This document shows, piece by piece, positions 48,451-52,316 of a DNA stretch of 64,000 nt; positions within the stretch are counted from its first letter, which is position 1; every line of letters starts with the position of its first letter. Made by a program: the position numbers and the translations under genes. The stretch is from an uncultured Eubacterium sp. (GTDB taxonomy: Bacteria > Bacillota > Clostridia > Lachnospirales > Lachnospiraceae), in NCBI GenBank assembly GCA_945946665.1, contig CAMEWO010000002.1, positions 1 to 64,000 of the forward strand. The letters run 5' to 3'. The notes under the pieces were generated by a model. The model was not told the origin of the DNA. It made no database searches and was given only the letters and a program-made list of their open reading frames with translations.

Positions 48451-49320
48451 TCATTCTCCAATAATATTCATTACGTATGACTTAACAGTTAGAATATTTA
48501 AAGGAGAATTCATTGTTTCATATGTAATTATCACATCCTTGCCTGGGAATAAACCATTCTCAATATATAAGTTAATTTTATTCATATGATTATTGACATA
48601 ACCAGGATCATCCATTCTTCCAGCATGTTCCCAAAAGGTAACTTTGCCTGTATTAACATTTAAAATTGTAAAGTCAGGGTGTATTACTTGAATTCGCCCA
48701 TCCCTCCCAAGTTCTAATGGGCGCTCATATTTATACTTTATACAATTATCATATTTATCTAACAGATTTGCAATGATTAATTCAGACTTAGAACGAACAT
48801 ATTCTCCCCTATTTGTTTCGAATATCATGTTTTCCTTATGATTTTGATATGTTTCGTATTCCTCATTTTCCCATTGTCTTATTATTTCTTTTATACTTGT
48901 TCTTACAGGACATATCATCTGTTTCCTGGCATCTATCATAGAATCATACACATCATCAACTATATTTTCATTATATGTGTTATAGAATATCTCTAATGAA
49001 TGCAGTTCTTTTTCTAACAATGGTTTAACCTTTTCATAATATGCTTTTTGTGCAAGTGCATTTGCAATATTTTCGTTATCTCTTTTTATGTATTCTTTTA
49101 TATATTTTCCATCTTTTTTTATTTGATGATAGTAATATGTCTTTTCCTGTCGCTTCTGAATTTTTAAACTTCCTTCTGGAGCATGTATTAGTTCATTTTC
49201 TATTGTCCCTAATACCTTTTTTAATTCTATTATTCTTTCTTGAACCCTCTTCTTTATGGCTACCCCTCCTATTCTCCCCAAAATCATATTTATATATGCT
49301 TTGGTCCCACATATTTTCAC
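48451..49320 (-). CDS. Orphan PD-(D/E)XK nuclease-like protein with N-terminal coiled coil; start uncertain
   Basis: RSKSELIIANLLDKY...YERPLELGRDGRIQVIHPDFTILNVNTGKVTFWEHAGRMDDPGYVNNHMNKINLYIENGLFPGKDVIITYE matches the E...PDF...(W)EHxG arrangement seen in PD-(D/E)XK proteins. Confidence 0.6.
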   Translation of the reverse strand: MKICGTKAYINMILGRIGGVAIKKRVQERIIELKKVLGTIENELIHAPEGSLKIQKRQEKTYYYHQIKKDGKYIKEYIKRDNENIANALAQKAYYEKVKPLLEKELHSLEIFYNTYNENIVDDVYDSMIDARKQMICPVRTSIKEIIRQWENEEYETYQNHKENMIFETNRGEYVRSKSELIIANLLDKYDNCIKYKYERPLELGRDGRIQVIHPDFTILNVNTGKVTFWEHAGRMDDPGYVNNHMNKINLYIENGLFPGKDVIITYETMNSPLNILTVKSYVMNIIGE

Positions 49321-49605
49321 TTTAATTTTTCTATTTCAGTCCAAAACCAATTATTTTATCTTATTGGGCATATACTTTTATTCTTACTATCTGCCCAAAT
49401 TTAAAGCACACTGTGTAATGGTCAGATAAAAACTTTTTTCTTCTCTGCCCATTAATATGATTATTTTGTTTTTGGGCACATTATTTTGATTAATTTCATT
49501 TGTATCTCTGTCCAAAATGATAGATTTTCCATATATGGGCATATTCAAACTGATTTAACATGGATATTTATCTGCCCAATGCATAAAAAATGCTTCTTAA
49601 GGCAG
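49271..49605. repeat. Array of alternating inverted TGGGCA/TGCCCA hexamers, largely 27-nt spaced
   Basis: Hexamer starts at 49365(+), 49392(-), 49419(+, TGGTCA), 49446(-), 49473(+), 49509(-, TGTCCA), 49536(+), 49573(-); degenerate copies at 49275, 49302, 49338, 49599. Confidence 0.65.
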
Positions 49606-49685
49606 AAATTAGATAATAGATACTTTTTAGATATATCAACCCCGCCAAAACAGCGGGGCTGATTTAAGAAAATTAACAGATATGA

Positions 49686-52316
49686 TTATTTGTTGTTAAT
49701 AGCTGCCTGTGCTGCTGCCAGTCTTGCAATAGGAACTCTGAATGGAGAGCAGCTTACATAATTAAGGCCATTCTTGTGGCAGAATTCAATTGAACTTGGG
49801 TCTCCACCATGCTCACCACAGATACCACACTTAAGTTCAGGTCTTGTTCCTCTTCCCTTTTCAACAGCCATCTGAACAAGCTGGCCAACACCAGTCTGGT
49901 CAAGTCTTGCAAATGGGTCAGACTCATAAATCTTAGCCTTATAGTATGAGTCAAGGAACTTACCAGCATCATCTCTTGAGAAGCCAAATGTCATCTGGGT
50001 AAGGTCATTAGTACCAAATGAGAAGAACTCAGCTTCCTTTGCAATCTGGTCTGCTGTAAGGGCAGCTCTTGGAATCTCAATCATAGTACCAATCTTGTAC
50101 TGAATATCAGAGCCCTTCTCCGCCTTAACCTTCTCTGCAGTCTCAACAACCACATCCTTAACATACTTTAATTCCTTAACCTCTCCAACAAGAGGAATCA
50201 TAATCTCTGGAACAATTGTATAGCCCTTTTCTGCGCTTACTTCAATTGCAGCTTCCATAACTGCTCTGGTCTGCATTCTTGCAATCTCTGGATAAGTTAC
50301 GCACAGACGGCATCCTCTGTGACCCATCATAGGGTTAAATTCATGAAGAGCATCACATTTTGCCTTGACTTCCTCAACTGTAAGTCCCATATCTTCAGCA
50401 AGAGCCTTAATATCCTCCTCATCAGTAGGAACGAATTCATGAAGAGGTGGATCAAGATATCTTACAGTCATTGGTCTGCCTTCAAGAGCCTCGTACATAG
50501 CCTTGAAATCAGCCTTCTGGAACTCACCGATAGCCTTCAGTGCCTCTTCTCTTTGTTCAACAGTATCAGAAAGAATCATTCTTCTGAACTTAGGAATTCT
50601 GTCCTCACCGAAGAACATATGCTCAGTTCTGCAAAGTCCTATTCCCTCAGCTCCAAGTTCAACAGCCTTTCTTGTATCCGCTGGTGTATCGGCATTAGTT
50701 CTTACACCAAGCTTTCTGTACTTATCAGCAAGAGCCATGATTCTACCAAAGTCTCCGCCAATCTCAGGCTCTCTTGTTGCCACATCGCCCTTATAAATCT
50801 TACCTGTAGTACCATCAAGAGAAATGTAATCTCCCTCGTGGAATGTATATCCACCAAGTTCAAACCACTTAGCTTCCTCATCAATCTTAATCTCACCGCA
50901 TCCTGATACGCAGCATGTTCCCATACCTCTTGCAACAACCGCTGCATGAGATGTCATACCACCTCTTACAGTAAGGATACCCTGGGCAGCTTTCATACCT
51001 TCAATATCCTCTGGTGATGTCTCAAGTCTTACAAGAATAACTCTCTCATTCTTGCCGCCCTTTCCTAATGCCTTTGCATCCTCAGCAGTGAAGCATACCT
51101 TTCCTGCTGCTGCACCAGGAGAAGCAGGAAGAGCCTTTCCGATAACCTCTCCATCTGCTAATGCCTTAGGGTCAAATATTGGGTGGAGAACCTGGTCAAG
51201 AGATTTTGCTTCAATTCTAAGAACAGCCTCTTCCTCAGAAATCTGTCCCTCATCCATCAGGTCACATGCAATCTTCAATGCTGCATGAGCTGTTCTCTTA
51301 CCATTTCTTGTCTGAAGGAAATAGAGCTTTCCTTCCTCAATCGTAAACTCCATATCCTGCATATCATGGAAATGATTTTCCAGCTTCATAGCCAGTTCCA
51401 TAAATTCCTTATAGCACTCTGGCAGATCCTTCTCAAGCTGTGATATAGGCTGTGGAGTTCTTACACCTGCAACAACATCCTCGCCCTGGGCATTAATAAG
51501 ATATTCACCATATATACCCTTCTCACCTGTTGATGGATTTCTTGTAAATGCAACACCTGTACCAGATGTGTTACCTTTGTTACCAAATACCATTGTCTGT
51601 ACATTTACAGCTGTTCCCCAGTCACCAGGAATATCATTATCTCTTCTATATACAATAGCTCTTGGATTATCCCATGATCTGAATACAGCCTTAACAGCAC
51701 CCATCAGCTGTTCTCTTGGGTCCTGTGGGAACTCCTCACCATTCATAGCTTCTTTATATACCTGCTTAAATTTATTTGCTAATTCCTTAAGGTCATCAGC
51801 ATCCAGCTCTGTGTCGTATTTAACCCCTTTCTTCTCCTTCATCTCATCGATTATCTTCTCGAAGAAAGACTTAGGAACTTCCATAACTACGTCAGAATAC
51901 ATCTGGATAAACCTTCTGTATGAATCATATGCAAATCTTGGATTACCAGTCTTCTTTGCAAAGCCTTCAACAGCAATATCATTAAGACCAAGATTCAGAA
52001 TAGTATCCATCATACCAGGCATTGATGCTCTGGCTCCCGATCTTACAGATACTAACAGAGGATCTTCATTATCTCCAAACTTCTTGTTATTAACTTCCTC
52101 AAGCCACTTTAATGCTTCAAAAATCTGGTCCTTAATCTCGTCAGAAATCTGCTTCCCCTTGGCATAATAGTCTGTACATGCTTCTGTTGTAACTGTAAAT
52201 CCCTGTGGAATAGGCATTCCCAAGCCAGTCATCTCAGCCAGATTACATCCCTTACCGCCTAACAGATTTCTCATTGAGGCATTGCCTTCTTTAAATAAAT
52301 AAACCCATTTTGCCAT
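49686..52316 (-). CDS. ppdK: Pyruvate, phosphate dikinase
   Basis: LLGGKGCNLAEMTGLGMPIPQGFTVTTEAC; GGMTSHAAVVARGMGTCCVSGC; GTNDLTQMTFGFSRDD; CGICGEHGGDP. Confidence 0.98.
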   Translation of the reverse strand: MAKWVYLFKEGNASMRNLLGGKGCNLAEMTGLGMPIPQGFTVTTEACTDYYAKGKQISDEIKDQIFEALKWLEEVNNKKFGDNEDPLLVSVRSGARASMPGMMDTILNLGLNDIAVEGFAKKTGNPRFAYDSYRRFIQMYSDVVMEVPKSFFEKIIDEMKEKKGVKYDTELDADDLKELANKFKQVYKEAMNGEEFPQDPREQLMGAVKAVFRSWDNPRAIVYRRDNDIPGDWGTAVNVQTMVFGNKGNTSGTGVAFTRNPSTGEKGIYGEYLINAQGEDVVAGVRTPQPISQLEKDLPECYKEFMELAMKLENHFHDMQDMEFTIEEGKLYFLQTRNGKRTAHAALKIACDLMDEGQISEEEAVLRIEAKSLDQVLHPIFDPKALADGEVIGKALPASPGAAAGKVCFTAEDAKALGKGGKNERVILVRLETSPEDIEGMKAAQGILTVRGGMTSHAAVVARGMGTCCVSGCGEIKIDEEAKWFELGGYTFHEGDYISLDGTTGKIYKGDVATREPEIGGDFGRIMALADKYRKLGVRTNADTPADTRKAVELGAEGIGLCRTEHMFFGEDRIPKFRRMILSDTVEQREEALKAIGEFQKADFKAMYEALEGRPMTVRYLDPPLHEFVPTDEEDIKALAEDMGLTVEEVKAKCDALHEFNPMMGHRGCRLCVTYPEIARMQTRAVMEAAIEVSAEKGYTIVPEIMIPLVGEVKELKYVKDVVVETAEKVKAEKGSDIQYKIGTMIEIPRAALTADQIAKEAEFFSFGTNDLTQMTFGFSRDDAGKFLDSYYKAKIYESDPFARLDQTGVGQLVQMAVEKGRGTRPELKCGICGEHGGDPSSIEFCHKNGLNYVSCSPFRVPIARLAAAQAAINNK

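Follow-up and report, generated by a model that had tools for sequence, protein, structure and literature searches.

The window, a 64,000-nt stretch of DNA from an uncultured Eubacterium sp., encodes a nuclease-like protein on the minus strand downstream of ppdK, and ahead of this gene lies a phased array of 12 alternating inverted boxes, recovered by direct reading of the sequence together with a hexamer search (Table 1). An earlier note had reported six exact TGGGCA/TGCCCA hexamers here, all of which were found at the claimed positions and strands; direct reading likewise returned the six degenerate copies and all eleven spacings that it gave. The conserved core of the boxes extends to 8 bp (TCTGCCCA / TGGGCAGA), and the spacers between them are unique. 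A GC-rich hairpin, unflagged by an automatic terminator scan, stands between ppdK and the array, and a promoter scan of the window recognised none upstream of the nuclease gene.

Table 1. Features of the nuclease-like gene and its upstream array (positions in the window).
Feature	Position	Strand	Remark
Nuclease-like gene, probable extent	48454..49257	-	268 codons from ATA 49257-49255; stop codon 48451-48453
Shine-Dalgarno-like AGGAGG	49265..49270	-	7 nt ahead of the ATA codon; arrangement common to L043 and L044
Whole phased array, 12 boxes	49273..49605	.	core TCTGCCCA / TGGGCAGA
Degenerate box TCCCCA	49275..49280	-	sequence reading
Degenerate box TGGTCC	49302..49307	+	sequence reading
Degenerate box AGTCCA	49338..49343	-	sequence reading
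Box TGGGCA	49365..49370	+	exact hexamer
Box TGCCCA	49392..49397	-	exact hexamer; TCTGCCCA from 49390
Box TGGTCA	49419..49424	+	sequence reading; TGGTCAGA
Box TGCCCA	49446..49451	-	exact hexamer; TCTGCCCA from 49444
Box TGGGCA	49473..49478	+	exact hexamer
Box TGTCCA	49509..49514	-	sequence reading; TCTGTCCA from 49507
Box TGGGCA	49536..49541	+	exact hexamer
Box TGCCCA	49573..49578	-	exact hexamer; TCTGCCCA from 49571
Degenerate box AAGGCA	49599..49604	+	sequence reading; AAGGCAGA
GC-rich hairpin, end of upstream gene ppdK (49686-52316, -)	49632..49666	-	terminator-like by eye

The GTG codon listed as the start of this gene, at 49320, is probably wrong, and translation probably begins at the ATA codon at 49257, because a Shine-Dalgarno-like hexamer lies just ahead of that codon and the closest homologues (L043 and L044) have the same layout. 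With the ATA start, the entire array would be upstream of the gene, and the extent of 48451-49320 given in the earlier note is probably too long. A strong Shine-Dalgarno sequence with an apparent ATA start occurs in three related genes, namely the window gene (49255-49270, minus strand), L043, and L044. An ATA start behind so strong a Shine-Dalgarno sequence suggests that the nuclease is weakly translated.

The hexamer TGGGCA is not raised in number across the window (28 found against 29.9 expected), so the array is a local cluster, in which the six exact hexamers are packed into 214 bp and alternate almost perfectly. Chains of alternating inverted 7-mers, with one mismatch allowed, were also sought without bias toward any sequence; the best chain at this site comprised 9 boxes, and its score of 7.2 exceeded all 200 dinucleotide shuffles (maximum 5.2). 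The excess over shuffled sequence, whose absence the earlier note had named as a refutation, is clearly present. Measured in the motif model's 7-mer register, the TCTGCCCA...TGGGCAGA pair is rigid at 29-30 bp, the other inverted gap is 24 or 33-34 bp, and boxes of the same orientation are 54 or 63-64 bp apart, corresponding to 5 or 6 helical turns. The values of 27 and 36 nt given earlier are correct, but they shift with the boundaries chosen for the hexamer; a more apt description than a 27-nt period is one of rigid inverted pairs that follow each other at intervals of 5 or 6 helical turns.

Relatives of the nuclease are encoded in at least 590 stretches of GTDB contigs from hundreds of genomes, mainly of gut and rumen Clostridia but also of Fibrobacter and one spirochaete; homologues were present in 14 of 61 relatives, with up to six per genome. 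Many of these loci come from metagenome assemblies, and the alignments and box models were built automatically. An alternating chain upstream of the gene beat all 20 shuffles at 66 of 104 loci; a control run on a slightly altered set of loci placed 65 of 101 upstream regions above every shuffle. When an excess of more than 1 unit over the shuffles was required, 52 of the 101 upstream regions qualified compared with 6 of 338 control regions (5 of 104 immediately downstream, 0 of 109 inside the gene, and 1 of 125 further away), and the five downstream positives are themselves further arrays just 3' of the gene. About one-third of the homologues lack a significant array. The conservation upstream of homologues that the earlier note looked for is therefore found, as arrays of the same architecture built from other boxes. 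The box differs by clade, being TTACGTACTAC in L003, GGTGGGTA in L007, CTGCCTA in L059, CCTGTTG in L070 and L073, and AACCGTA in L101, L102, L122, L084, and L095. The largest array noted (L074) has 30 boxes. The distance from the end of the last box to the estimated start codon has a median of 57 nt and ranges from overlap to about 400 nt. Most loci, the window included, carry an array upstream of the gene only, and in L068, L098, and L102 arrays with the same box flank the gene on both sides. A tandem paralogue was considered as the source of the downstream arrays and rejected, as tblastn returned no second gene copy. No description of this association of nuclease and array was found in the open-access PMC literature, and priority is uncertain.

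Helical phasing recurs across these arrays. Among 45 of them, the commonest distance between boxes of the same orientation was 53/54 bp (25 arrays), 62-64 bp (7), 72-75 bp (9), or 84/85 bp (4), and the best-fitting period was 10.35-10.4 bp. The p-value over the full set owes most of its weight to the 53-54 cluster. Tested separately, the 20 arrays outside that cluster are still in phase (p ~3e-7); because related arrays do not count as independent, all these phasing p-values are optimistic. Jumps of at least 8 bp in 11 arrays are confined to one of the two inverted spacings and mostly measure about 10 or 20 bp, the other spacing being steady within 3 bp, usually at 29-32 bp; in a twelfth such array both spacings jump. 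Rigid spacing combined with helical-step jumps is the signature of a protein on double-stranded DNA.

The window protein matches no Pfam or NCBIfam family, and no transposase family among them. Its C-terminal half matches the PADLOC defence candidates PDC-S68 (E 2.6e-28) and PDC-S69 (E 2.9e-6), whose nuclease domain is homologous; the PDC-S68 models are about 1200 residues long and are matched only at their C-terminal end, whereas the nuclease here has 268 codons. An AlphaFold model (mean pLDDT 91.9) predicts a long (coiled) helix at 18-46, strands at 51-57, 60-69, and 72-77, and a second long helix at 80-115, followed by a PD-(D/E)XK-like domain. Foldseek gave weak matches of the nuclease domain to MunI, RecU, FAN1, and phage endonucleases, and structure comparison gave no convincing solved relative of the N-terminal domain. 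E180, P215-D216-F217, and E231-H232, numbered from the GTG codon at 49320, are invariant in 58 aligned sequences, and conserved acidic residues sit on the core of the modelled fold as in PD-(D/E)XK enzymes; the usual lysine is apparently replaced in this family. The same nuclease domain also occurs in very long open frames of about 1200 residues in three other genomes (G225, G408, and G109), and plasmid matches to it (H1-H7) carry AAA or RecD-like helicase annotations; both settings recall candidate defence proteins. A plasmid or phage origin of the gene was rejected, the matches amounting to domain-level plasmid hits and two small unannotated phage records. The genes neighbouring the homologues are mostly housekeeping genes, and PADLOC matches among them are mainly UvrD-type helicases.

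Boxes are more alike where the proteins are more nearly identical (Mantel r=0.27, p=0.0005, n=42), a correlation that comes mostly from pairs above 45% identity and vanishes below 45%; the co-divergence of box and protein is thus partly inherited history. The AACCGTA box is kept across proteins only about 60% identical and with unrelated spacers. Residues that track box similarity beyond overall identity are concentrated in columns 47-79 (11 of 28 tested columns compared with 19 of 174 elsewhere; hypergeometric p=0.0005), the region of the predicted three-stranded sheet ahead of the PD-(D/E)XK fold. Array and gene occur downstream of ppdK in seven loci (the window, L007, L043, L044, L045, L048, and L049), whose proteins are 29-56% identical except for L043 and L044 (86% to each other). 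CCCA is common to several of the detectable boxes at this site (TCTGCCCA, TCAGCCCA; reversed, TACCCACC), and by eye the box of L045 is TTGCGCCCA. Comparison of these loci indicates that box and protein drift together at a fixed site. A shared upstream neighbour is also seen within two groups of Butyrivibrio homologues (L056/L065/L075/L080 and L059/L061/L070/L073), which indicates that the gene keeps its place through inheritance even as its protein and box change.

Arrays also occur far from the gene, as seen in checks that covered a few genomes. Two Eisenbergiella genomes contain 86 (the genome of L095) and 41 (that of L104) AACCGTA box pairs, with none for a control pattern, and other genomes of the AACCGTA clade contain 1-11. 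Many of the Eisenbergiella copies are MITE-like elements of about 500 bp with ends like GTTACTTTTCATGGGG that carry nuclease-type boxes, and 8- and 9-bp direct repeats flank two of them (GAACAGTA in L178 and GCGCTTGCG in L176). Copies of the element were seen at L164, L166, L176, L178, L181-L183, and other dispersed loci of G462/G465. An autonomous transposon carrying the gene inside these inverted ends was rejected, since no such ends were detected flanking the gene loci. The gene-free arrays L161 and L163 are free of MITE-like ends, and a further gene-free array, of 14 boxes, is present in Butyrivibrio XPD2002.

The window's own genome holds two to four distant arrays with a matching or near-matching box. 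The two strongest, on contigs C11 (L202, after prfA) and C24 (L203), are 8-box arrays with a period of 74-75 bp whose box, TCTGCC(C/T)A, is near that of the local array but not identical; they are 81% identical over 271 bp, and the similarity is bounded by the array ends. A second array type, with the core TTTGGRC and a period of 54 bp, occurs in L205 (1696-1890, contig C29) and L204 (1-130, contig C22), one copy sitting at a contig end. L203, L205, and the gene-free L161, L163, and L194 exceeded all 200 shuffles, L202 only marginally, and gene-free arrays retain intact boxes and geometry. The sister genome G011 has flanks resembling the C11 site in another context and without the array; no clean target duplication was found at this indel, and the nuclease gene was not found in G011, whose assembly is 77% complete. 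A GC-rich repeat of 37-39 bp (GGGCGCCAGCCCGACAGCGAGAAG...) occurs several times in the window's genome, among them in L203 (17-55 and 150-188) and L211 (contig C39), and once in G011 (L207).

The architecture, phasing, co-divergence, concentration of box-associated residues in the sheet, dispersed arrays, and predicted nuclease fold are computed results. We consider it fairly probable that the array consists of double-stranded DNA binding sites for the adjacent nuclease, autoregulatory or sequestering near the gene and REP-like elsewhere. The array excess over shuffles, its conservation upstream of homologues, the co-divergence, and the helical spacing support the proposal of the earlier note that these are phased binding sites for the neighbouring protein. 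Direct binding would then involve a nuclease dimer, each subunit reading one 7-8 bp box through the N-terminal three-stranded sheet, so that one dimer would span an inverted pair of boxes with a spacing of about 30 bp. Pairs stacked by whole helical turns would bring all dimers onto one face of the DNA. Beside the gene, the coated array would most likely repress it and keep the nuclease safe and concentrated; we infer such regulation or sequestration from the position of the array and its median distance from the estimated start. The box set would be renewed by tandem duplication while changing in concert with the protein, and the distant arrays would behave as REP-like repeats that are non-autonomous and owe their upkeep, and perhaps their spread, to the nuclease. 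Weighing against this reading are the loss of the box-protein correlation below 45% identity, the N-terminal domain's want of a convincing solved relative, the negative promoter scan, the homologues with no significant array, the same-box arrays downstream of some genes, for which a pure promoter operator would have no use, and the close but different box of the two strongest distant arrays in the window's genome.

The inverted pairs could fold, the repeat units are tandem, and the array sits upstream of a nuclease gene, as would be expected if a transcribed string of small hairpins, either a leader or a type III antitoxin-like RNA, acted on the nuclease. Among 4172 paired core positions, however, no excess of compensatory changes was found: 11 double changes were counted against 7.8 expected by chance, 5 complementary and 6 non-complementary, and single changes on the sense strand were as often of G.U type as of A.C type (87:89), without strand asymmetry. 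These counts speak against the multi-stem leader RNA of the earlier note, the spacing steps of 10.4 bp are helical, and an Rfam search of the locus gave no match, leaving such an RNA extremely improbable. Within arrays, 4.3% of core box positions deviate, and the deviations are common to same-orientation neighbours (33:4), which indicates tandem duplication. Sites for an unrelated host DNA-structuring protein, with the nuclease as a mere neighbour, would account for intergenic dispersed arrays resembling those of chromosome-organising proteins. We regard this as very unlikely, because the box varies among homologues and tracks the nuclease sequence, especially in the sheet, and because strong arrays are nearly absent from the other regions tested.

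A plain autorepressor operator array, with many sites giving a steep switch and distant arrays as relics of lost gene copies, would suit the short distance to the start codon, the upstream bias of strong arrays (52 of 101 compared with 5 of 104 downstream), and a phasing and geometry typical of cooperative repressor binding. Up to 30 boxes is far above operator needs, though, the distance to the start varies widely, array elements are duplicated, and gene-free arrays keep their boxes and geometry. We think it rather unlikely. A selfish REP/RAYT-like repeat, propagated by nuclease cutting and copying, with the gene-side copy one member and regulation secondary, is somewhat more plausible, though we still doubt it. 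The dispersed box pairs of Eisenbergiella, the gene-free array of Butyrivibrio, the two similar arrays delimited at their ends, the array-containing indel relative to G011, and the two-sided arrays all agree with it, as does the long retention of chromosomal sites by the genes, which is also reported for RAYTs. Against it, most Eisenbergiella copies lie in the MITE-like element, with direct repeats at two, and an element with its own inverted ends points to a conventional transposase as what moved them; nor does the window-genome indel show a clean target duplication.

The preferred reading, phased sites for the adjacent nuclease, has partial counterparts among known systems. Cooperative phased operator arrays and iterons present repeated sites on one helix face to a protein encoded nearby; the arrays described here differ in strict alternation, up to 30 boxes, a box that varies by homologue, dispersed copies, and a nuclease domain. 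Type III toxin-antitoxin systems (ToxIN) place direct repeats that act as RNA just upstream of a nuclease gene, and the present array shares that position but is alternating and inverted, with DNA-type phasing and no RNA covariation. CRISPR arrays consist of 20-40 bp direct repeats with unique spacers and cas genes, whereas here 7-8 bp boxes alternate and the nuclease gene has no Cas family match, in agreement with the earlier note. The Eisenbergiella copies resemble MITEs in their terminal inverted repeats and, in two cases, direct repeats, but the arrays beside the gene and other gene-free arrays lack such ends. A further parallel is with REP/BIME repeats and RAYT (TnpAREP) proteins, which form "REPtrons" in which a single chromosomal gene is flanked by its own type of repeat, the repeats being of alternating orientation, dispersed between genes, and co-evolving with the protein (PMC2817692, PMC3116915, PMC8266576). 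The nuclease-array system resembles these in its dispersed copies, in chromosomal sites that stay fixed and hold one distinctive copy each, and in the co-divergence of repeat and protein. Dispersal of cognate repeats between genes is seen in two Eisenbergiella genomes and in Butyrivibrio and, with related boxes, in the window genome. Flanking of the gene on both sides is seen in L068, L098, and L102, against upstream arrays only in most loci, the window among them. The RAYT enzyme is an HUH Y1 tyrosine transposase, in contrast to the alpha-beta3-alpha plus PD-(D/E)XK protein predicted here, and REPs are 20-40 bp palindromes that form single-stranded hairpins with a GTAG head, unlike these headless, non-palindromic boxes of 7-8 bp phased by helical turns. 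Since enzyme and repeat are both unrelated, the nuclease-array system is not a member of the REP/RAYT family.

The pairing of a widespread bacterial nuclease gene with matching phased boxes has the appearance of a novel type of protein-plus-repeat system. We tentatively suggest, as a possibility with a little less than an even chance, that it represents a new, REPtron-like but HUH-independent class in which a PD-(D/E)XK nuclease with a sheet-type reading domain amplifies, homogenises, and disperses its co-evolving phased arrays. The nuclease's preferred DNA site is apparently readable from the sequence adjoining its own gene, and the homologues, with the boxes that match them, form a natural series in which to study how a beta-sheet domain changes specificity. 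The arrays may also serve to mark a class of bacterial repeats that has gone unrecognised, and they would make it possible to test directly whether repeats can be maintained and spread by a nuclease that belongs to no transposase family. If they act as a safety platform, they would represent an unusual way to keep a nuclease harmless.
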